Below are positions 3,866 to 17,431 of a DNA stretch of 17,485 nt, piece by piece. Both the position numbers and the translations under genes were made by a program. Position 1 is the stretch's first letter. Each line of letters begins with the position of its first letter. Origin of the DNA: Deltaproteobacteria bacterium RBG_13_61_14 (GTDB lineage Bacteria; RBG-13-61-14); NCBI GenBank assembly GCA_001797815.1, contig MGQK01000024.1, positions 10,063-27,547 of the forward strand, given 5' to 3'. The notes under the pieces are model-generated. The model was not told the origin of the DNA. It was given only the letters and a program-made list of their open reading frames with translations, and made no database searches.

Positions 3866-6571
3866 TTGAAGGATGAAGACATAAATCCTGAACAAGTCAT
3901 TTCCTTTGAATCCACCCCTGGCCTGGAAGAAGCAGCTCTCGGTGCCAAAGCCCTGAGCCTCGTGCGCCTGAGCGGGATCGGATTGCCGGTTCCCCCGGGT
4001 TTCTGCATCCTGGCCTCTGCCTACCGAGAACATTTCCATTCAAGCGGCCTTCTCTCCCGGGTCCAGAGCGCCCTGGAACAACTGGGCGCCGCCTCGCCGG
4101 AGGCGCGGGGCCCGATCCTGGCTGCCTTGCGCCAAGAGATCATCGCCACGCCTCTGTCCCCGGAGCTGGAAAGCCGGATTGCCGACCATTACCACCGGCT
4201 CGCCGCGGACCGGGTCGCGGTCCGATCCTCCGCCACCGCGGAAGACCTGCCCGGCCACTCCTTTGCCGGACAGTATGATACCTTCCTGGGCGCCGCGGAC
4301 CTGGCGGGTTGTCTCGCGGCGATCAAGCGCTGTTGGGCTTCGCTGTGGACCGAACGGGCCTACGCTTACCGCGAGCGCAACGGTTTTGACCACCTGGACC
4401 TGGCCATGGCCGTGATCGTGCAAAAGCTCGTCCCGGCCGAGGTCGCGGGCGTGCTCTTTACCGCGGACCCGGTGACCGGTCGCTCGGACCGGATCGTGAT
4501 CGAAGCCTGCTTCGGCCTGGGCGAAGCTTTGGTCTCCGGCAAAGTTAGCCCGGACCGATTGATCGTGGCCAAAGCCAACCTCCGCTTGCTCTCTCACACC
4601 ATCGCGGAGAAAAAAATCGCCTGTGTGCTGGAGGAGGGGGGCGGGGTCCTGGAACAAACGGTGGCCGCGGAACGAGCGCAGGCCCCCTCGCTGGATGAGG
4701 CCCTGGCCCGAAAATTGGCCGAACTGGCCATCAAGGCCGAAGCCGCCTTGGGGGCGCCGCAAGACCTGGAATGGGCGATATGCAAAAATGATATTTTCTT
4801 CCTGCAGGCCCGGCCGATCACCACCCTTCCCCCGAAAAAAACCTGGGAGGACCGTCAGGTCTGGAGCAATATCAACACCGGCGAGATCTTGCCCGACGTG
4901 GTGACCCCCTTGACTTGGTCGTTGCTCGATATCCCGTTCAAAAAGATGGTCCAGGATATCTTGAGCCGCTTAGGCATGGATTTAGGGGATCATCCGCTGG
5001 TCGGCCAGGTCGCCGGCAGAGTGTATTTTAATCTCAATACCGCGGTCGGCATGGTCCGCTGCTTTCCAGGCTCCCAGAACATAGACCTCACCAAAATTCT
5101 GGGCGGCAAACAAGAAAATATGGAGGATCTGGGCCGGTTGGAGATTCCGGAGGAAGACATCCCGGACCTAAGCTTTCATGGGCTGACCATGGCCCTTAAA
5201 CTGCCGGGCCTCCTGGTCTGGGTCCTTTCTCACTCGCTCGGCCGGGGCGAAGTCTTTGTGGCTGAAACCCGAAAGCGGGTCGAGGAGTTTCAGCGGATCA
5301 ATTTAAACTCTCTTTCGGACCAGGCTCTCCTCGGCCGGATTCAAACCGTGATCGCCGAGGTTTTTACCAGTTCCAACTTCCTCGCCTTTCCCTTCGTGGG
5401 CATGGCTTGCTTCACCGCTTTGGACAAGTTATGCCGCAAGTGGCTCCAGGATTCCGAAGGCGCCTTGGCCAACCGCCTGGCCTCCGGCGTGGGCGGCATG
5501 GACAGCGCCGAGGCCGGTTTTGCGCTCTGGCGCCTGGCGGTTTCGGCCCAGCAACACCCGGCCCTGGCCGAAGCCCTCTTGGCCAAAGAAACCTGGGAGA
5601 CCGCTCGGAAAAAAATCGCCAACCATCCCGGCGGCCGGGAATTCCTGGCCGATTGGAACGCCTTCATGGCGGAACACGGCCATCACACCCGGGGCGAGCT
5701 CGAGCTTTTCAACCGCCGCTGGCGCGAGCAACCGGATTACATCCTGGGACTGGTGTGCGGATATTTGGGCGGTCTGGAAAAAACGGACCCGCTGGCCAAC
5801 TACCAGCGCCGCCGAGAAGAACGCGACCGAATGGTCCACCAGTGCCGGCAACTGCTCCGTAACCCGATCCAACGTCGGTTGTTCAATTTCTGGCTTCCCC
5901 GAGCCCAGCGCGGAGTGGTGCTGCGGGAAAACATCAAGAGCATGGCCATGCGCTTCTTCGCCGTGATTCGCTTCCTGTTCCTGGAACTGGGACAAAGGCT
6001 GGTCCGAAGAGGCCGGCTGGAGGAAGTCGAGGATATTTTCTTCCTGCGCCTGGAAGAAATCGAGCCGGTGGCGCGGGGTCAGGCAAAATTCGAGGTAAAG
6101 AAAACCATCGCTCAGCGCCGGGTCGAACATGAAAAAAATTTAGCCATCACCCCGCCGCCCCTGGTCATCGGCAAATTTGATCCCGACCACTTCGTCCCCC
6201 TCCCGGTGGAAGAGAACGTGGAAATACTGCGCGGGATCGCGGTCAGCCCCGGCGTGGTCACCGGCCCGGCCCGGGTGATCCTTCGCGCCAGCACCGAGGA
6301 ACAAGTCCTCCCCGGCGAAATCCTGGTCGCGCCCTTTACCGACCCCGGCTGGACGCCTTACTTCATCACCGCCGCGGCCATCGTCATGGACCAGGGCGGC
6401 CTGCTTTCCCACGGCAGTATCGTGGCCCGGGAATACGGGATACCGGCGGTGGTCAACGTCGGCCCGGCCACGAAAATTATTCGGACCGGTCAGATGATTC
6501 AGGTGGACGGCAACCGCGGCCAGGTCAGGATTTTAAAAGATTTTCCTCACCCGAAGGCGGGACGGGAGTAA
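3866..6571 (+). CDS. PEP-synthase-like dikinase with rifampicin-phosphotransferase domain order
   Basis: 901 residues in three parts. The N-terminal ATP-grasp PPDK domain (about 15-320) has LGAKALSL (Lys28), VRSSATAEDLPGHSFAGQYDT (Arg120), GVLFTADPVTG, EACFGLGEALVSG and DLEW...FLQARPI. A central linker/substrate domain (about 328-760) begins SNINTGEILPDVVTPLTWS. The swivelling phosphohistidine domain (about 790-890) has the GGLLSHGSIVARE motif with catalytic His849. The C-terminal PEP/pyruvate TIM barrel of true PEP synthase is absent, as in rifampicin phosphotransferase (RPH) and the separate subunits of phenylphosphate synthase. Expected reaction: ATP's beta-phosphate moves via His to a small acceptor, releasing AMP and phosphate. 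The acceptor (antibiotic, phenolic or other) cannot be read from the sequence. Start: TTG 3866 is the only plausible start upstream of the Lys28 motif. An in-frame stop lies at 3845, the ATG at 3873 is out of frame, and no clear Shine-Dalgarno is seen. Convergent with the next gene, 14 bp apart. Confidence 0.85.
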   Translation: MKDEDINPEQVISFESTPGLEEAALGAKALSLVRLSGIGLPVPPGFCILASAYREHFHSSGLLSRVQSALEQLGAASPEARGPILAALRQEIIATPLSPELESRIADHYHRLAADRVAVRSSATAEDLPGHSFAGQYDTFLGAADLAGCLAAIKRCWASLWTERAYAYRERNGFDHLDLAMAVIVQKLVPAEVAGVLFTADPVTGRSDRIVIEACFGLGEALVSGKVSPDRLIVAKANLRLLSHTIAEKKIACVLEEGGGVLEQTVAAERAQAPSLDEALARKLAELAIKAEAALGAPQDLEWAICKNDIFFLQARPITTLPPKKTWEDRQVWSNINTGEILPDVVTPLTWSLLDIPFKKMVQDILSRLGMDLGDHPLVGQVAGRVYFNLNTAVGMVRCFPGSQNIDLTKILGGKQENMEDLGRLEIPEEDIPDLSFHGLTMALKLPGLLVWVLSHSLGRGEVFVAETRKRVEEFQRINLNSLSDQALLGRIQTVIAEVFTSSNFLAFPFVGMACFTALDKLCRKWLQDSEGALANRLASGVGGMDSAEAGFALWRLAVSAQQHPALAEALLAKETWETARKKIANHPGGREFLADWNAFMAEHGHHTRGELELFNRRWREQPDYILGLVCGYLGGLEKTDPLANYQRRREERDRMVHQCRQLLRNPIQRRLFNFWLPRAQRGVVLRENIKSMAMRFFAVIRFLFLELGQRLVRRGRLEEVEDIFFLRLEEIEPVARGQAKFEVKKTIAQRRVEHEKNLAITPPPLVIGKFDPDHFVPLPVEENVEILRGIAVSPGVVTGPARVILRASTEEQVLPGEILVAPFTDPGWTPYFITAAAIVMDQGGLLSHGSIVAREYGIPAVVNVGPATKIIRTGQMIQVDGNRGQVRILKDFPHPKAGRE

Positions 6572-6585
6572 AATCTTGGCAGCGC

Positions 6586-7227
6586 TTACCGACTTCTTTT
6601 CGATTTACGAACGATCTTCTTGACGGCTTTTTTCTGGGCCGCTTGCTTCTTCGCCGCGGTCTTCTTGACGGGCTTCTTTGCCGCAGGCTTCTTCACTTTC
6701 CCTTTGACCTTCGCTTGAGGTTTCGCCCGGGTTTTTTGGACCACGGGTTTCTTGTACTCGGCTTTTTTCTTGGCCTCCGCGGCCGGCGCAAAATGGGAGA
6801 TGTCCGTGATCCGGCCTTTGCGCTCTTCGGCAAAGACCGCCTTGACCCTCTGGCCCACCTGGACCTGGTCCGGCGGAACTCCGCCGAGGAGGTGGATCAA
6901 CGAGCTGTCCGCCCCGTCCAACTTGATGGCGGCCAGGACCAGGGGCGGCTTGTGGGGCTGGAACGGCTCCGCATAGCGCACCACCGTAAAGCTCTCGACT
7001 GTCCCCGTTCCCGGGAGCTCCACCCATTCCTCGATCTTCGATAGGCACCGCTCGCAGTTCCCGCGCGGGGGCACGAACACCTTGCGGCAGGTCGGGCACC
7101 GACAGCCCAGGATCTTTTTCTCATCCCGCAAGGCGCGGAACCATCGGGAAGAGAACGTGCCTGCAAAGTAGCGGTAGGGGATCTCCAGCTTGCCCGGAAC
7201 CTCAAACGCCCACTTCGCTTCGGTCAT
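6586..7227 (-). CDS. DUF35 zinc-ribbon/OB-fold protein with lysine-rich C-terminal tail
   Basis: 213 residues from ATG 7227, chosen because AAGGAG (7234-7239) sits 6 nt before it; a longer frame to 7257 lacks such a site. The N-terminal helix region is followed by a rubredoxin-like zinc ribbon with Cys44/Cys47 and Cys58/Cys61. A DUF35 OB fold follows (about 65-146, GTVESFTVVRYAEPF, LVLAAIKLDG, VGQRVKAVF). Residues from about 148 to the end are a low-complexity basic tail (28 Lys/Arg in 66 residues, AAKKPVKKTAAKK style) like histone H1 or AlgP tails. DUF35 proteins commonly bind acyl-CoA and pair with thiolase-like enzymes (for example benzylsuccinate-pathway BbsA, steroid-pathway ChsH2, archaeal HMG-CoA synthase partners). 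No thiolase is in this window. Second gene of a two-gene unit with its paralogue upstream. Confidence 0.82.
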   Translation of the reverse strand: MTEAKWAFEVPGKLEIPYRYFAGTFSSRWFRALRDEKKILGCRCPTCRKVFVPPRGNCERCLSKIEEWVELPGTGTVESFTVVRYAEPFQPHKPPLVLAAIKLDGADSSLIHLLGGVPPDQVQVGQRVKAVFAEERKGRITDISHFAPAAEAKKKAEYKKPVVQKTRAKPQAKVKGKVKKPAAKKPVKKTAAKKQAAQKKAVKKIVRKSKRSR

Positions 7228-7242
7228 CGCCCACTCCTTGGT

Positions 7243-7265
7243 GGTGCAGGTTTTCAACCTGCACC
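7243..7265. repeat. Hairpin between the two DUF35 genes
   Basis: GGTGCAGGTT (7243-7252) and AACCTGCACC (7256-7265) form a 10-bp stem with a 3-nt loop. It starts 2 bp past the stop codon of the upstream DUF35 gene and 4 bp before the Shine-Dalgarno of the next. No T-run follows, so it may be an attenuating or stabilising hairpin rather than a terminator, or simply a dispersed palindrome. Confidence 0.6.
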
Positions 7266-7267
7266 CT

Positions 7268-7753
7268 TTAATCCGGAATCACGTGGAAATAGAGGATATC
7301 CAGCACGTTGCCGGTGCGCTCGCCGTCCGGCCGGAACACGGCCTCCACCCGCTGGCCCACCCGGAGCTTCTTGGGGTCCGTCTCATCCAGGAAGTGCATG
7401 AGGGTGGCGTCACCGCCGTCCAGCTTGATGCTGCAGGTGGTATAGGGCACCTCCCGCATCTTCCCGGTCAGCGGGTTGATAGTGGGCACATAGACCACGT
7501 CGAAGACCACGACCTGGCCCGACGTTTTCAACTCCACCCACTCGGTCACCTCCACGTTGCACTCGGCGCAAACGATCCGGGGCGGAAGCTGGGTCCGGCC
7601 GCAATTCGGGCATTGATTAGCCCAGATCCGCTTGTGGTCCCGGATCTCGGCCAGGAACCGGCCCATGGTGGGTCCGGTGGAAAAGACGAGGGGGATGCTC
7701 ATCAACTCCTGGACCTCGATCAACTCCTGGACCGGCTTGGTTGCAAGTGCCAT
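7268..7753 (-). CDS. DUF35 zinc-ribbon/OB-fold protein
   Basis: 161 residues from ATG 7753, selected over an upstream ATG because GGAAGGAG (7761-7768) lies 7 nt before it. Zinc ribbon Cys48/Cys51 and Cys62/Cys65 (QCPNCGRTQLPPR, CAECN). OB fold from about 70 to 155 with GQVVVFDVVYVP, YTTCSIKLDGGDA, VGQRVEAVF. The domain order is the same as in the downstream paralogue but without a basic tail. Family members act with thiolase-like or HMG-CoA-synthase-like enzymes to channel acyl-CoA. The cognate enzyme is not visible here. Two different DUF35 proteins side by side suggest a hetero-complex or two partner enzymes (inference). First gene of the pair, with its own promoter candidate. Confidence 0.85.
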   Translation of the reverse strand: MALATKPVQELIEVQELMSIPLVFSTGPTMGRFLAEIRDHKRIWANQCPNCGRTQLPPRIVCAECNVEVTEWVELKTSGQVVVFDVVYVPTINPLTGKMREVPYTTCSIKLDGGDATLMHFLDETDPKKLRVGQRVEAVFRPDGERTGNVLDILYFHVIPD

Positions 7754-7784
7754 GGCGAAACTCCTTCCTTGGGCGGCGCCCTTT

Positions 7785-7813
7785 TTCATACGATAGATCT
7801 CGCGCCTTGTCAA
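7785..7813 (-). promoter_or_regulatory. Promoter of the DUF35 gene pair
   Basis: On the minus strand, -35 TTGACA (7808-7813) and -10 TATGAA (7785-7790), spacer 17 bp. It lies in the 78-bp gap between the glmS stop and the DUF35 start, so the pair can be transcribed independently of glmS. No intrinsic terminator for glmS is evident in the gap. Confidence 0.6.
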
Positions 7814-7831: not shown

Positions 7832-9664
<1,833 letters not shown>

Positions 9665-9702
9665 AACTTGTCGCTCCACTTTATCAAAATCTGTCCATTA
9701 TT

Positions 9703-9851: not shown

Positions 9852-11930
9852 TCACGGCCACGCCTTCCAGACCATGACCGCGCCGAGCAAGGTGACGAGG
9901 GTCGCGCTGAAGAGCGGCAGCCCCAGGCCGGCAAAGCGGCCCTGGCCGGTGAAACGGTCCAGCAGCGGCCGGGCCTGGACCATCACGATCCCGATCGCGA
10001 TCAACACCGCGGCCAGACCCAGGCTGAAAGATAAGATGACCGAAAGGCCGAAGAGGATGCGCTTCAGGGAGACCGCGATCAGGAGCACCGCGAGCGCGTC
10101 CGGGCAAGGCACAATGCCGCCGGTCACGCCCAGGGCGACCAGGCTGCCCAGAGTTACCTGGCTCCTGGGCAAGGCATGGGCATGGGTCACTCCGTCATGG
10201 GAATGGGTCAAGTTAGAAGGGTGCGGGTGAGGGCACCCGCACTCCAGGCCGTGATCGTGTCCATGTCCGTGGTCATGATCGTGCTCGTGTCCCTGATGGC
10301 GGAATTGGTCCGCCACAGCGCCGGCGGCCGAGCCGAAGCGGAGGTAGTTGCGAAGGCGGATCTGAAAGAGATAGACCCCCAACACCAGGATGAGGACCCC
10401 GGAGGAGAACGACATCCAGGGCACCAACTGGTCGGGCAGAATGTAGCGCGAGGCGAAGAGCGCGAGCACGGCGAGGATGATGACGCTCCCGGTGTGGGTG
10501 AGGGTGACGATGAAGCCGAGTAGGACCGCGTCCAGGGTGCGGCCCTTGGTGCCGACCAGGTAGGCCGCGACAATGGTCTTGCCGTGGCCGGGGGTGAGGG
10601 CGTGGAGCCCGCCGATGACCACGGCCAGGATCAGGGCCAGGGTCAGGAAGGGCGCGCCCATTTCCGGGCTTTGCACCAGGTTACGGAGGAGCTCTCGGGC
10701 GTTCTCGTAGCGGAAGGAGCTGAAGGCCAGGTTGACGTTGCGGAGCGCGAAGACGACCACGCCGCCGGCCAAGACCAGGAGTCCAGCCCAGGCCTGCAGG
10801 TGGAACCGGAGCACGAGCTTTCTGAGCGGCCAGGCCAGGGCCGCGGCGGCGAGCACCAGGGCCAAGGCGCCCCAGCCCGGGTGGAGATTAGCTCGGGTTC
10901 GAAGGAGGATGAAACCGTTGACCAGGCCGAAGGTCAGAGCGAGCAGATAAAGGGCGACCGGGGAAATGCGGGGGCGATCCGACTCCTCTCCGAAAAGTAG
11001 GGGCGACCGGCCGGTCGCCCCTACGGAGGCCGCGATCAGGAAAAGGCCGGTAACCATGAGCGGACTCAGGCGCAGGAACTCGGCCCAGGCGAGCACCAGC
11101 ACCAGGGTAGAGCCGGCCAGGAGCAAGGCCCAGCCCCTCCGCGTCCATCCCCGGCCGGCGGCCCAGGCCAAGAGTCCGGCATAGATAGTCAGGGCCGCGA
11201 GCACGCTGCGGAGCATGGCCGAAGCGGGGATGGGAAGATTAAGCCGGAGCGCGAGCGGGGCCAGGCCGTGTCCGAGCACGAGCACGGCCAGGGCAGAGGC
11301 CAGGGAGCGGCTTCCGCCGGCCAGGATCAGGAGGACCAGGCCCAGGGCCAGGTAATCCCACCAGGGCGCGATCCGCGCCTGCCAAGCCGGCGCGGTCTTG
11401 GTCTCCGGCCCCGCGGCTTTAACGCCGCAGGTGAACTGGCTGGAGCGGAACAGGCACTGCTGGACCCGGTCCGGGAAGTTAAGCGTGGCAAAGGAAGTGT
11501 GCAGCCGGTTCTCGTCCACCAGGAAATGACTGACCAGGGAGAATTGGTCCAGATAGCCGGGCTCGCAGGCCAGGCCCGCCTCGACTTGCACGCTGGCGCC
11601 TTCGAATAATACTTTCATGTCCGGCTGAAAAGCGCAGCCGGGCAGCTTGATTTTCTCAGGCAGGCTCGAGGCCAGGTAGTCGCGGACCTTGGCCTTGAGC
11701 GCCTCATCCACCGGCACCCGAATCTGGATCATTACCTCCTGCTTGATTACCAGGTCCGGGTCCATGATCCAGACCGCGTCGGCCAGGGGCATCCGGAAAA
11801 CCACCCGGGCCTGGTCCGATTTCAGCTCCCAGGTGGAAAAACTCATGCTGATGTGGTGGGCAAAGACCGAAAGCGGCACGGCCCAAAGAAGCACGGAGAA
11901 AATCAGGATGCGGCGACAACTTGATCTCAA
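9852..11930 (-). CDS. NicO/RcnA-family nickel/cobalt transporter with large N-terminal domain
   Basis: 692 residues. Signal peptide about 1-24 (ends SVFAHH), then an extracytoplasmic domain to about 205, then many membrane helices. The NicO signature GLHALTPGHGKTIVAAYLVG (about 439-458) and GGIVPCPDALAVLL (about 600) flank a histidine-rich loop at about 540-584 (HEHDHDHGHGHDHG...HPHP...HSHDG). Such loops bind Ni, Co or Zn in RcnA-like exporters. The family moves Ni2+/Co2+ across the inner membrane. Substrate and direction here are inferred. The N-terminal half, including a HupE/UreJ-like membrane region, makes it about twice the size of RcnA. Start is TTG 11930 with AGGAG 5 nt upstream, and its TTGA overlaps the TGA stop of the isomerase gene, indicating translational coupling. 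An in-frame perfect palindrome encodes residues about 303-312. Confidence 0.85.
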   Translation of the reverse strand: MRSSCRRILIFSVLLWAVPLSVFAHHISMSFSTWELKSDQARVVFRMPLADAVWIMDPDLVIKQEVMIQIRVPVDEALKAKVRDYLASSLPEKIKLPGCAFQPDMKVLFEGASVQVEAGLACEPGYLDQFSLVSHFLVDENRLHTSFATLNFPDRVQQCLFRSSQFTCGVKAAGPETKTAPAWQARIAPWWDYLALGLVLLILAGGSRSLASALAVLVLGHGLAPLALRLNLPIPASAMLRSVLAALTIYAGLLAWAAGRGWTRRGWALLLAGSTLVLVLAWAEFLRLSPLMVTGLFLIAASVGATGRSPLLFGEESDRPRISPVALYLLALTFGLVNGFILLRTRANLHPGWGALALVLAAAALAWPLRKLVLRFHLQAWAGLLVLAGGVVVFALRNVNLAFSSFRYENARELLRNLVQSPEMGAPFLTLALILAVVIGGLHALTPGHGKTIVAAYLVGTKGRTLDAVLLGFIVTLTHTGSVIILAVLALFASRYILPDQLVPWMSFSSGVLILVLGVYLFQIRLRNYLRFGSAAGAVADQFRHQGHEHDHDHGHGHDHGLECGCPHPHPSNLTHSHDGVTHAHALPRSQVTLGSLVALGVTGGIVPCPDALAVLLIAVSLKRILFGLSVILSFSLGLAAVLIAIGIVMVQARPLLDRFTGQGRFAGLGLPLFSATLVTLLGAVMVWKAWP
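10997..11024. repeat. Perfect 28-bp palindrome inside the NicO coding sequence
   Basis: GTAGGGGCGACCGG followed by its exact reverse complement. It is read in frame as part of ASVGATGRSPLLFG, a loop between two membrane helices. The GTAGGGGC...GCCCCTAC ends match the style of intergenic palindromes elsewhere in this window, which suggests an inserted repeat tolerated in a loop. Confidence 0.8.
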
Positions 11931-12736
11931 TCTTTCTCCTCAACCCGGTATTTTTTCTTCAGCCGGGTGATTTCCTCCTGATACATCTTCTCCCGCAGTT
12001 CCCGCCGGCAATCTTCGGTGACCCGGGTCTTGACCTCCTCGAACTCATAGGGCCGCACCGCCTCCTCGTCCAGCACCTTCAAATAGTGCCAGCCCAGGCT
12101 GGAGCGGATCGCCTCGCTCCACTTGCCCCGGGGCAACTCGAACACCTGCTTCGCCAGCGTCGGACCGTAAGCCTTGCGAAGATCATCCTCGCTCACCCAC
12201 TTCGGCTCGCCCCAGCGGCTTTGGTCGCGGAACAACTCCTCCAAACGGCCGCGGGCCTCAACCTCATCCACCAGGTTGGTAATCGGCACAAACAGGTGGA
12301 GGTAAAACCTCCGGGGCTGGGTGCGAAAGCGGTCGCGGCGCTCGCTAAAATACCGCGCCACCGCTTCCGGCGTGACCATTGCGTCGGCCTTCTCATAGAG
12401 CGCCATCACCTGGATCTCGACCAGGCGGTTCCGCACAATGTAATCGTCTGCGGCCAGGCCCTGGGAAAAGGCCTCGGCCACGAACAGCGCCTGCGCCTCA
12501 GCGCCCTCCCGCATCTCCTCCTTGACCTGGTCGAGTTGATCGCGGAGCGCCGGGGTCTCGGCCACCGCGGCGTCCACCGCGTCCTGCACCTGGCGGCGGG
12601 AGTAACCGACTTCCAGCGCCTCGGCAGACTCGGGCAGCTTCGCCGACGGGTCCCAGACCAGCGCGGCCCCCAGCACCGCGGCGCCGATTAAACCCAGCCA
12701 GGGAGCCAGGCCGGACCAGACCCTGGGACGAGTCAT
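11927..12736 (-). CDS. Membrane-anchored parvulin-type peptidyl-prolyl cis-trans isomerase
   Basis: 269 residues from ATG 12736. The N-terminal membrane anchor is about 8-28 (LAPWLGLIGAAVLGAALVW), followed by a helical chaperone-like segment (about 35-140, SRRQVQDAVDAAV, LVEIQVMALYEKADAMVTPEAVARYF). A PPIC-like domain follows (about 145-235) that ends with the parvulin hallmark LPRGKWSEAIRSSLGWHYLKV, then a C-terminal coiled stretch. Expected role: folding of exported proteins on the periplasmic face. The catalytic core is divergent, so isomerase activity is uncertain while a holdase role remains possible. The start ATG overlaps the TGA of the DUF3604 gene (ATGA). The only SD-like AAGGA directly abuts the ATG with no spacer, so coupling to the upstream gene probably drives translation. 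A longer TTG start at 12781 has no SD. Confidence 0.82.
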   Translation of the reverse strand: MTRPRVWSGLAPWLGLIGAAVLGAALVWDPSAKLPESAEALEVGYSRRQVQDAVDAAVAETPALRDQLDQVKEEMREGAEAQALFVAEAFSQGLAADDYIVRNRLVEIQVMALYEKADAMVTPEAVARYFSERRDRFRTQPRRFYLHLFVPITNLVDEVEARGRLEELFRDQSRWGEPKWVSEDDLRKAYGPTLAKQVFELPRGKWSEAIRSSLGWHYLKVLDEEAVRPYEFEEVKTRVTEDCRRELREKMYQEEITRLKKKYRVEEKD

Positions 12737-14901
12737 TCCTTGACGATGTAGATGGGCGACGTCCAGGCCCGTTCCTCGCAATAGGTTTCAAAATCGCCGG
12801 CGTCGGAAAAGCAGGCGTCGCCGAGCTCGGCGCGGGAGATCGGGGAAGCCTTGCCCTGGGGGTTGGCTTTCTTGGCCACTTCATCGGGTTTGGGGATCCG
12901 GTTGTCGCAGCTCTGCCCGCGAGTCAGCCGCGCCGTGGGCCGGCAGTTGTAGCCCGGGGTCGGCTCCTGGATCACCCGGAAATAGTAAGCCACCGAGCGG
13001 CCCGGCGCTTCCCTCTCAAACTCCGGGTCGGTCCAGGTCCACTCCACCTGCCCCTGGTGGAACTCGATTGTGGCGTAGGGGTCCAGGATCAGGCCGTCCG
13101 GATTTTCCGGCGACCACTTCAGGTCCGCCATCTGGGCCTCGGTGATGGTCAAAGGCTGGCGCACCTTGACCACCTCGATCCGGGCAATGGGCGTGCGCCG
13201 GTCTTGCGGGTTGTAGCACTGGCTAAAGCAGAGTTTCTCAAACTCGCGCCGCGACAGGGCCGCCTGGATCTCCGGCTGCTGGTCATACCGGCAGGTGCCG
13301 TCTTCCACAAACGCGCCCTGGGCCTTGAGATAAAAGGTCGGATTCATCGAAGAAGTAGTTACGTCACCCATCTCCACCAGCTCTTCCCGGCCCAGCCGCT
13401 GGATCCGGGCGCGCAGCCACAGCTCGATCCGGCCGCCCGAGGTGCCATACACGTGCCGGTCCTGGAGCGCCTGCCACAGGGCGTCCCGGGTCCGGTGGGG
13501 CGCCGCGACGGCCACCAGGCCGCCGGGGTTCAGGTAGTTGGCGATCCGCTCGTAGCCCCACATTTGCACCGAGGCGTCCATCCCGGCCACGCCCAGGTTG
13601 GTCTTCTGGGCCAGGTTGTAGAGGAGGGCGCCGCCGTGGGCCATGATCAGCTCGGCGCTGAGCTTATCCTCCATCACCGAGGCCGGCCGCGCCGCATGGG
13701 TGTCGGTGGAGTTGAGGAAGCCGAAGCGGTAATAGGTGGGCTTGCCTTGCTCGTCAAAGTAGGCGGAGGCCAGCGCCTTTTGCACCGAGCCCAGGGGGTT
13801 GTAGTTGAAGGCCGGCTGGTAACAGTCGCGGCACTGACCGCAGACTCCCCAGTCCCAGTAATTCAGCTTGGCGGGGTCGTTTCGGAACTGGGGCTTGAGC
13901 TGATCCCGGTCCTTGCGCGACACGCCCTGGGGGAACGGAGCCGCGGCCTCCCGGGCCAGCGCGATCTGCTGCTGACAGAAATCCGAGTTGGGGTCATCAC
14001 AGCGTTCCTTCACGATCTCGCCGGCGCGCCAGCAGCAGGGCTCGTAGCTGGCGGTTGGCTCGGAGCAGACTTTCTCGCAGGTCCCCGGCTCCTTGCACTC
14101 TCCGGCCGGGAATTCTTTCCCCTCCCGGAAATACCGGTAGTCGGACGGGAAGGCGCGGTATTCCTCGGAGTTGCCGTGCTTGGAAAAGACCTCGATCAGG
14201 CGCTGCAGCTCCGGGTTGTGCTGCTCCGGGTTGAGCTGGATATCCCAATCGGTGTGCATGGTGAAATTGCCCCAGGCGTTGCCGTGGGGGATGACCGTGG
14301 CCGCGCAGCCGGTCCCGGCCTGGGTGCAATACTTTTGCAAAAGCGCGTAGAGCTTGGCCGGCGTCTCGGCCAGGAAGGTGAGGTCTTTGAAATCGCCGAA
14401 GTCCTGCGGCCGCAAGCCGGCGAAACCCCGGTAACAGCGGATGGGGCTGGGCGGCAGCTTGTCCAGGGTGTCGTATTTCAGGATCACGTTCTTGTGGCCC
14501 CAGGGCGCTTGCTGGGTCCATTCCCAGCCGGTGAAGGCCACGATCCTGGGGTCGCCGTCCGACGCCGGGTGCGCCTGCGCCTGGGCGTTCCGGCTCTGGG
14601 CCGCCCGCGTGGCTTCCGGCCAGTAGTCGTTGCGGGTCAGCACCTCGGCATGGTCGGTCACCGAGTAAAAGTCCAACTTGGCGCAATGCTCGGCATACAC
14701 GCCGGCCTCTTCGGCATAGGCTCCGGGCGGCAAGAGCATGATCCAGGCGTCAAGCGAAAAGTTGGTATGAACGTGCAGGTCGCCCCAGTAAATGTTGGGC
14801 AGCGGTTCCTCCCAGGGCTCCGCCGCCGACAGCGGGCAGGTGAACAACAAAACCGCGCCTAACCCCGCCGCGGCCAACGCCTTAATTCTTTTTCTTGCCA
14901 C
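12733..14901 (-). CDS. Secreted DUF3604 protein (PHP-like metal-dependent hydrolase), cysteine-rich
   Basis: 722 residues from GTG 14901, with GGAGG 5 nt upstream (14907-14911). Signal peptide 1-27 (ends PLSAA). PHP-superfamily metal motifs are YWGDLHVHTNFSLDAW (His43, His45), DFYSVTDHAEV (Asp83, His84), IPHGNAWGN and LNSTDTHAARP. This fits DUF3604, a family with putative metal-dependent hydrolase or phosphoesterase chemistry and no settled substrate that I know of. The mature chain has about 21 cysteines, clustered around residues 270-370 (CKEPGTCEKVC, CCW, CGQCRDC) and near the C-terminus, suggesting disulfides or metal sites in an exported protein. It overlaps the 3' end of glmU by 20 bp and the next gene by 4 bp, so expression is tied to both. 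Neighbours (an anchored foldase and a metal transporter) suggest a metal-containing periplasmic enzyme. Confidence 0.85.
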   Translation of the reverse strand: MARKRIKALAAAGLGAVLLFTCPLSAAEPWEEPLPNIYWGDLHVHTNFSLDAWIMLLPPGAYAEEAGVYAEHCAKLDFYSVTDHAEVLTRNDYWPEATRAAQSRNAQAQAHPASDGDPRIVAFTGWEWTQQAPWGHKNVILKYDTLDKLPPSPIRCYRGFAGLRPQDFGDFKDLTFLAETPAKLYALLQKYCTQAGTGCAATVIPHGNAWGNFTMHTDWDIQLNPEQHNPELQRLIEVFSKHGNSEEYRAFPSDYRYFREGKEFPAGECKEPGTCEKVCSEPTASYEPCCWRAGEIVKERCDDPNSDFCQQQIALAREAAAPFPQGVSRKDRDQLKPQFRNDPAKLNYWDWGVCGQCRDCYQPAFNYNPLGSVQKALASAYFDEQGKPTYYRFGFLNSTDTHAARPASVMEDKLSAELIMAHGGALLYNLAQKTNLGVAGMDASVQMWGYERIANYLNPGGLVAVAAPHRTRDALWQALQDRHVYGTSGGRIELWLRARIQRLGREELVEMGDVTTSSMNPTFYLKAQGAFVEDGTCRYDQQPEIQAALSRREFEKLCFSQCYNPQDRRTPIARIEVVKVRQPLTITEAQMADLKWSPENPDGLILDPYATIEFHQGQVEWTWTDPEFEREAPGRSVAYYFRVIQEPTPGYNCRPTARLTRGQSCDNRIPKPDEVAKKANPQGKASPISRAELGDACFSDAGDFETYCEERAWTSPIYIVKE

Positions 14902-16303
14902 TGCTCCCTCCTTTTTTCTTTAACTCCGCCCGCTTCTTCGCCCAGCCGGGCTTGTGCTTCTCCGGCGCCCGGGTGATCGCCAACGCTCCCGGCGGCACGT
15001 TCCGGGTGATGGTGGAACCCGAGCCGATATAAGCCCCCTTGCCCACCTTCACCGGCGCGATGAACTGGGTGTCGCTCCCCACAAAGACGTCATCTTCAAT
15101 CACCGTCACCGACTTCTTCACCCCGTCGTAATTGCAAGTGATGGTCCCGCACCCGATGTTCACGTTCTTCCCCACCCGGGCGTCGCCCAGGTAGGTGAGG
15201 TGCGCGGCCTTGGTGTCGTCGCCGACCCTGGCGTTCTTCAACTCGACAAAGTTCCCGATCCGGACCCGCTTGCCCACCATTGAGCCGGGCCGCAGGCGCG
15301 CCATCGGGCCGATGGTGGTGTCGTCTCCAACCGTGCTCGATTCCAGGACCGAGCCGGCCCGCACTTCCACCCGGTTCCCCAGGTCCGAATCATCCAGGCG
15401 CGACCCGGCCTCAATCACGCAAGCCCTGCCGATCCGGCTTTTGCCCAAAAGCCGCGCGCCGGACTCGATCACCGTGTCCGGCCCGATCTTGACCCCGGGC
15501 GCGATCCAGGTCCGCTCCGGATCTTCCAGGGTCACCCCGCTCTCCATCAGCGCCGCGTTCACCCGGGCCCGGAGCACGGCCTCGGCCTGGCCGAGCTGGG
15601 AGCGGGAGTTGATCCCGAAGGTTTCGCGCGGGTCATGCGCTTCCAGGGTGGCGATGAGGACTCCCTCGGCCACGGCCAGGCCCACCAGGTCGGTCAAATA
15701 ATATTCCTTCTGCCGGTTGTCCTTCTTGAGCTGGGGCAGCATGCGGAACAGGAACCCGGCCTCGCAAAGGTAGATGCCGGGGTTGGCCTCGGTGATGCCG
15801 CGCTGGCCCGGGGTGCAGTCGGCTTCCTCCACGATGCCGAGCACCTCCCCGGAGGAGTCGCGCAAAATCCGGCCGTAGCCCCGGGGCTCGGCCAGCCGCG
15901 CCGTGATCAGCGAGAGCTTGGCCCGCTTCTTATGATGGGCGGCCCTGAGCCGCTTGATGGTGGCCGGGGTGAGCAAGGGCACGTCGCCGTAAAGGATCAA
16001 TACTTCTCCGGAGAAGCCCTTGAGCGCGGGCGCCGCGGCCAGGGTGGCGTGGCCGGTGCCGAGTTGCTTTTTCTGGAGGGCGAAGCGGATCCTGGGGTTA
16101 CGGCGACGGAGGAGATGCGCCTTGACCTGTTCGGCCTGCACTCCCACGACCACCACCACCCGCTCGGCGCCCAGGGAGAGCGCCAAATCCACCGGGTAGT
16201 CCACCAGGGGCCGGCCCAGGATCTCATGGAGCACCTTGGGCCGCTCCGACTTCATCCGCTTGCCTTCACCCGCGGCCAGGATTACGACGGCTAATTTGGA
16301 CAT
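14882..16303 (-). CDS. glmU: Bifunctional UDP-GlcNAc pyrophosphorylase / glucosamine-1-phosphate acetyltransferase
   Basis: 473 residues, slightly longer than E. coli GlmU (456) because of a Lys-rich C-terminal tail (KKRAELKKKGGSSGKKKN). The N-terminal nucleotidyltransferase (1 to about 230) has LAAGEGKRMKSERPKVLHEI, QLGTGHA and YGDVPLLT. The left-handed beta-helix acetyltransferase (about 255-445) has the hexapeptide pattern, RPGSMVGKRVRIGNFVELKNA, AHLTYLGDA, GCGTITCNYDG and FVGSDTQFIAPV. It acetylates GlcN-1-P and then uridylates it to UDP-GlcNAc. ATG 16303 is preceded by GGGAG at 7 nt. First gene of a run in which the next three genes overlap one another. In many bacteria glmU is followed directly by glmS, but here three genes intervene. 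Confidence 0.97.
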   Translation of the reverse strand: MSKLAVVILAAGEGKRMKSERPKVLHEILGRPLVDYPVDLALSLGAERVVVVVGVQAEQVKAHLLRRRNPRIRFALQKKQLGTGHATLAAAPALKGFSGEVLILYGDVPLLTPATIKRLRAAHHKKRAKLSLITARLAEPRGYGRILRDSSGEVLGIVEEADCTPGQRGITEANPGIYLCEAGFLFRMLPQLKKDNRQKEYYLTDLVGLAVAEGVLIATLEAHDPRETFGINSRSQLGQAEAVLRARVNAALMESGVTLEDPERTWIAPGVKIGPDTVIESGARLLGKSRIGRACVIEAGSRLDDSDLGNRVEVRAGSVLESSTVGDDTTIGPMARLRPGSMVGKRVRIGNFVELKNARVGDDTKAAHLTYLGDARVGKNVNIGCGTITCNYDGVKKSVTVIEDDVFVGSDTQFIAPVKVGKGAYIGSGSTITRNVPPGALAITRAPEKHKPGWAKKRAELKKKGGSSGKKKN

Positions 16304-17026: not shown

Positions 17027-17431
17027 TTGGGAGCTGCCCACCGCGATTTCAATGCCGGTCTCCTTTTCGATACAGAGAGTCGGGTAAGGGTGGACGTTTT
17101 AGATGATTTCATGGATCAAACAGAGTTCTTGTTAGAGGAAAGGTTAGATGTGCCTGCCACCTCTTTGGCTGGAGCAATCTTAGAAGATACATTGAGAATA
17201 ATTTGTGACCGACACAGCATCAGCTACCCTGATAAAACTAAGATAGACGCTCTTAATCGTTCTCTTGCAAGTGCGAAGGTATACGATAAACTAGTTCAAA
17301 AGCAGATTACAAGTTATGCAGATATGCGTAACAACGCTGATCACGGCCACTTTGATAAAATTCGTCATCAAGATGTAGAAGATTTTTTAAAATGGCTAAA
17401 GCGCTTTGTTATAGATCACCTCTCTAGGTAG
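17027..17431 (+). CDS. HEPN-like helical protein, possibly N-terminally truncated
   Basis: 134 residues if started at TTG 17027, ending at TAG. All-helical in appearance. The segment DVLDDFMDQTEFLLEERL...SLAGAILEDTLRIIC and the end YADMRNNADHGHFDKI resemble C-terminal domains of HEPN-type/DUF4145-like proteins. RNNADH fits the HEPN RX4-6H motif linked to RNase activity in toxin and defence proteins. Members I recall are longer, with an N-terminal part missing here. An in-frame ATG at 16988 is cut off after 7 codons by TAA 17009, so decay of the 5' end is possible. Start is unclear: other choices are GTG 17090 and ATG 17111, none with a good SD. Visibly richer in A/T than all other genes here, which suggests horizontal acquisition. 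Nothing further is seen from 17432 to the right edge. Confidence 0.6.
   Translation: MGAAHRDFNAGLLFDTESRVRVDVLDDFMDQTEFLLEERLDVPATSLAGAILEDTLRIICDRHSISYPDKTKIDALNRSLASAKVYDKLVQKQITSYADMRNNADHGHFDKIRHQDVEDFLKWLKRFVIDHLSR

Follow-up and report, generated by a model that had tools for sequence, protein, structure and literature searches.

A recurrent DUF3604, PpiC and HupE/UreJ_2 gene triad, with a HupE-NicO transporter fusion, between glmU and glmS of a deltaproteobacterium

The window analyzed here, a stretch of 17,485 nucleotides from Deltaproteobacteria bacterium RBG_13_61_14, carries between glmU and glmS a trio of genes encoding a DUF3604 protein, a PpiC-like protein and a HupE/UreJ_2-NicO fusion transporter, and the same DUF3604, PpiC and HupE/UreJ_2 combination recurs as 33 further triads in diverse bacteria (34 including the window). 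We hold with about even confidence that these three conserved genes together produce a PHP hydrolase that is exported by Sec, folded and loaded with metal; this function in maturation is plausible and is proposed from gene content. The parts each have known relatives, so that the novelty apparently lies in the triad and in the HupE-NicO fusion, neither of which was described in the literature searched (most subscription journals lay outside its scope). The same literature named DUF3604 only in work on a Chlamydia transposon platform, and the triad gives this family a functional context. It is largely unsettled how exported metalloenzymes come by their correct metal once they have left the cytoplasm, and the triad offers a testable case.

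Components of the triad

The trio and glmU (14882–16303) all lie on the minus strand according to the reading-frame coordinates of the window, with the DUF3604 gene (12733–14901, 722 aa) followed by the PpiC-like gene (11927–12736, 269 aa) and the transporter gene (9852–11930, 692 aa). The GTG start of DUF3604 lies within the last 20 bp of glmU, the ATG of PpiC at 12736 overlaps DUF3604 by 4 bp (ATGA), and the TTG of the transporter at 11930 overlaps PpiC by another 4 bp (TTGA). These overlaps of 20, 4 and 4 bp are exactly those given in a preliminary description of this DNA, whereas the interval it had assigned to the unit, 12733–16303, covers only glmU and DUF3604; the unit extends over 9852–16303.

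The DUF3604 protein, matching PF12228 with 104.2 bits (gathering score 20.4), is predicted from its sequence and its modelled fold to be a Sec-exported PHP-fold metallohydrolase. The model (pLDDT 86, pTM 0.89) adopts a PHP fold with 3e38 (Z 18.9) and 2anu (Z 16.9) as top matches (Foldseek, VIA), and the PHP ligands D41, H43, H45, D77, H84, E127, H206, H242, D400 and H402 are kept in at least 95% of 70 relatives, the first three within motif I, GDLHVHT (14764–14784, minus strand). The protein exhibits a Sec-like signal peptide, recognized by eye, and 22 cysteines with a Cys-rich insert, in which the alignment places CGQCRDC (13822–13842, minus strand). Fold and ligands support the PHP-like metalloenzyme proposed earlier. 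The fold and the metal ligands are common to PHP-family phosphoesterases (3e38, 2anu) and CehA/McbA, whereas export, the Cys-rich insert and an extra C-terminal beta domain distinguish the DUF3604 protein, and the CehA/McbA metallohydrolase profile NF038032 yielded 32.5 bits, under its cut-off of 80. A sequence search against solved structures returned only weak CHCH matches to the Cys-rich insert (E 0.23).

By its sequence, the second gene product is a predicted membrane-anchored, parvulin-like protein, scoring 46.6 bits for Rotamase_2 (PF13145, cut-off 27) and 201.5 bits for the family profile. Two of the active-site histidines of PpiC are kept in the window and they vary across the triad family, which we count against a role in maturation.

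The transporter had been described as NicO; the NicO domain stands, but the subfamily alignment indicates a HupE/UreJ_2-NicO fusion rather than a simple NicO protein. Residues 6–399 match the HupE subfamily of the triads end to end (hhalign P 98.3, E 1.3e-14, score 109.7, 363 columns). As controls, 20 shuffled sequences and 60 further membrane proteins scored at most 25.8, with one exception at 35.8, a HupE-type protein in two overlapping loci. This subfamily profile settled the HupE identity, as the broad HupE profile reached only P 81; PF13795, present in relatives, gave no Pfam match on the window transporter. Conservation of the motifs HI, GxDH, FTxxH, FGLxHG and FNxGVExGQ reaches about 100% among 88 relatives. 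In the window R186, W190, Y193 and N338 replace H, G, H and H, FNxGVExGQ is missing, and of the four conserved membrane histidines three are lost, with H221 of FTxxH kept. Since ligands are lost in this membrane half (10731–11375, minus strand; delimited by hhalign and motif loss) and kept in the periplasmic part, residues 1–400 appear to be a HupE/UreJ_2 permease whose membrane core has decayed while its outer domain is intact.

This outer domain (residues 25–185; 11376–11858, minus strand), delineated by conservation and fold, is a predicted zinc/copper-type metal-capture domain. H25, C99, C122 and H144 are all kept in the window, being invariant in 13 of 13 and conserved to at least 99% in 88 relatives, and cleavage at SVFA/HH, placed by eye, would leave His25 as the mature N-terminus, a histidine kept in 13/13 and 88/88 relatives. 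The AlphaFold2 model of the domain (pLDDT 77) matched ZrgA (Z 12.3), PA4063 (Z 11.4) and Ang-1 (9gce, Z 10.0 with 130 residues aligned), ZrgA being closer than Ang-1 and the next unrelated chain following at Z 5.9; a sequence search of the domain against solved structures yielded no match. The zinc-binding ZrgA and PA4063 (8f1b, 7ahw) have this fold in common with the capture domain, but are separate proteins with 12–18% sequence identity to it. According to the accessible text of the anglerase study (PMC12537917; 9GCE), Ang-1, which is copper-binding, and Ang-2 share with the window protein a signal peptide, a mature N-terminal His, a HupE/UreJ-2 membrane domain and a capture domain built as a beta-sandwich, in which strands 2 and 3 are separated by three helices. 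In contrast to these anglerases, the window transporter contains a pair of Cys and, in H144, a second invariant His, has lost HupE ligands, is fused to NicO and is attached to PpiC and DUF3604 genes; neither partner is reported in the accessible part of that paper. The triad extends these recently described domains to a genetic system.

The fused NicO/RcnA-like domain (9855–10703, minus strand) exhibits HALTPGHGK and GGIVPCPDA motifs. The only NCBIfam match of the transporter, to NF007454 (RcnA), covers residues 435–691 and scores 148.5 bits, under the cut-off of 195. Two RcnA hallmarks, a His-rich loop (10176–10298, minus strand; 14 His in 41 residues) and the HxxxPGHGK motif, are both present. 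Its likeness to RcnA/NicO nickel-cobalt exporters thus comprises the C-terminal 280 residues of the transporter, the His-rich loop and HALTPGHGK, whereas it differs from them in staying below the curated RcnA cut-off and in being fused behind a HupE half. None of the other sampled loci showed a HupE-NicO fusion, and we regard NicO here as a lineage-specific fusion on a transporter of the HupE/UreJ_2 line. The NicO half was also considered as the conserved partner; plain NicO relatives (at most 53% identity), several with a different, HPLGNF-type N-terminal region, had neither PpiC nor DUF3604 nearby, indicating that it is not.

Recurrence in other genomes

Triads were collected from three samples: 80 DUF3604 loci, for 25 of whose genomes HupE positions were added; 386 genomes searched with a HupE profile and without selection on DUF3604; and 282 genomes of one Myxococcota-like phylum. 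Several triads share a genus, so that they are phylogenetically non-independent and their effective number is smaller than the 33 found outside the window, none of which adjoins glmU or glmS. The co-occurrence of the three families, on which the preliminary description had staked its proposal, survives this comparison, with all 33 triads away from glmU and with matching subtypes. Gene order among the first 18 triads, to which 15 more were added, was DUF-PpiC-HupE in 11, PpiC-HupE-DUF in four, divergent in two (L051, L083) and PpiC-DUF-HupE in one (L064), and this shuffling with partners kept argues for a functional tie rather than one inherited block. One further triad contains two tandem DUF3604 genes (L235:9912–14987).

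The partners match also at the level of subtypes. DUF3604 proteins fall by profile score into groups A, which includes the window, and B; subtype A is always accompanied by the HupE subfamily carrying an insertion (22/22 triads including the window) and subtype B by the other HupE (12/12), such that DUF3604 and transporter subtypes agree in 34 of 34 triads. One genome carries a triad of each subtype with matching partners (L083).

PpiC and HupE form a tighter core than the full triad. The first sample contains 52 HupE genes, of which 29 have PpiC directly upstream; in 27 of the 29 pairs stop and start overlap by 4 bp just as in the window, indicating that the overlaps are more than chance. This PpiC subfamily is rare elsewhere, as a scan of 2.26 Mb revealed a single copy without a same-strand HupE/NicO partner, located at a contig end (L030). 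The HupE-only search of 386 genomes yielded five full-length proteins of the HupE subfamily to which the window transporter belongs, all with PpiC upstream and four with DUF3604, compared with PpiC at none of the six other HupE loci. In the Myxococcota-like sample PpiC accompanied 38 of 60 subfamily HupE genes, but DUF3604 only 15, which suggests that the PpiC-HupE pair can serve something else and may be more general than the triad. In part of this phylum no PpiC is recognizable upstream of HupE genes of this subfamily (L251–L258 and others), where an unrecognized gene could take its place.

These pairs without an adjacent DUF3604 gene underlie the main alternative to a metallation unit, namely metal acquisition. 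PpiC and HupE would then be a general pair that brings together a capture domain, a permease and a foldase of its own, with DUF3604 as one client or neighbour gene of several, here perhaps a helper hydrolase with chelated or ligand-bound metal outside the cell as its putative substrate, freed for import. The accessible text of PMC12537917 points the same way, proposing that anglerase capture domains feed import and citing the HupE of R. leguminosarum as a nickel importer. Against this stand the perfect matching of DUF3604 and HupE subtypes, arguing for a specific tie, and the RcnA-like replacement in the window, which resembles exporters; we consider metal acquisition possible but on the doubtful side. 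A maturation unit has its own counter-evidence, as most subtype A DUF3604 genes sampled elsewhere have no adjacent PpiC or HupE. Three further DUF3604 paralogues of the window's own genome (L026, L027, L028), 52–58% identical, reflect a lineage expansion of the enzyme; the available stretches around them, two of which are short, contain neither PpiC nor HupE as a neighbour. A search for DUF3604 on plasmids gave no match.

We further considered that the trio serves a single pathway with no relation to metallation, such as the breakdown of an exported lipid or aromatic compound, with the transporter only supplying or removing metal in the background. Genes for ring degradation and dehydrogenases indeed surround some triads (L098, L106), as judged by eye only, but neighbourhoods vary widely and it is the triad alone that recurs, rendering this explanation unlikely.

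A proposed route of metal loading

In the proposed maturation unit, the PHP-type DUF3604 metallohydrolase would exit via Sec and fold outside the cytoplasm, where the membrane-anchored PpiC-like protein would hold or fold it, a physical interaction that we infer from the gene association. The periplasmic domain of the transporter would bind a first-row divalent metal, starting at the mature N-terminal His, and the transporter would carry metal through the inner membrane, allowing metallation of the hydrolase near the membrane. In the lineage of the window, ligands of the HupE permease core are gone and a domain of NicO/RcnA type is fused on, with the capture domain kept.

One objection to this proposal concerns the direction of transport. 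HupE relatives import nickel (PMC2667541; also work cited in the accessible text of PMC12537917), and characterized HupE proteins would as importers draw metal from the periplasm, which counts against maturation. RcnA relatives, on the other hand, are described as exporting nickel and cobalt from the cytoplasm into the periplasm, and for cable bacteria it has been proposed that RcnA supplies a nickel cofactor in the periplasm (PMC11247825). By analogy with these NicO/RcnA exporters, the exchange of HupE for NicO in the window suggests nickel or cobalt as the metal and a putative flow towards the periplasm, the natural swap between the two families suggesting a metal that both handle. A more specific version of the maturation proposal is tentative: a dedicated periplasmic metallation system, in which a capture transporter with N-terminal His and a foldase load one class of Sec-exported PHP hydrolases, and in which gene fusion put a channel of exporter type in the place of one of importer type. 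If true, this swap would tie the metal of the system to nickel or cobalt and its flow to the periplasm.

Position between glmU and glmS

The genes flanking the trio are identified by profile, glmU with 568.5 bits for NCBIfam TIGR01173 and glmS (7832–9679, minus strand) with 848 bits for TIGR01135, the latter separated from the transporter by a 172-bp gap. In a relative of the same order (G002) glmU adjoins glmS with 49 bp between the reading frames, indicating that the trio interrupts an old pair in the window's lineage. Adjacency was also found in G022, G030, G033 and G037, supporting the insertion proposed earlier, whereas a further genome (G001) is silent on it, having glmU at a contig end; both G001 and G002 lack any DUF3604 gene. 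The GC3 of the trio (0.83–0.86) differs little from the values of its neighbours (0.87–0.88), and thus by this measure there was no recent foreign arrival.

This similar GC3, and the fact that overlaps are common in bacteria, would also fit chance operon packing, in which a highly expressed glmU gathered unrelated genes. As a full explanation it is refuted by the 33 triads away from glmU, their shuffled order and their matching subtypes, and we deem it highly improbable. For the maturation unit, insertion between glmU and glmS would need no link to amino-sugar metabolism, and transcription of the trio probably continues from glmU. The single promoter assumed earlier found no counterpart, since a promoter/terminator scan of the minus strand, performing near the chance rate, detected no sigma-70-like site ahead of glmU; the same scan placed one weak sigma-70-like site, again close to the chance rate, in the gap between NicO and glmS.

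Additional reading frames surround these genes. A 134-aa ORF at 17027–17431, without a Pfam or NCBIfam match, adjoins glmU. Two adjacent ChsH2/DUF35-type zinc-ribbon OB-fold proteins are encoded at 6586–7813 on the minus strand, the one at 6586–7257 carrying at its C-terminus a long, histone-like tail rich in Lys and Ala (KKPAAKKPVKKTAAKK). PPDK_N and mobile domains make up the PEP-synthase-like protein encoded at 3866–6571, for which NCBIfam scores, including those for prodigiosin ligase and rifamycin phosphotransferase, stay under the curated cut-offs. A large BcrAD/BadFG-type activase with DUF2229 occupies 2–2956 on the minus strand, with a 1363-aa ORF in L038:8927–13018.
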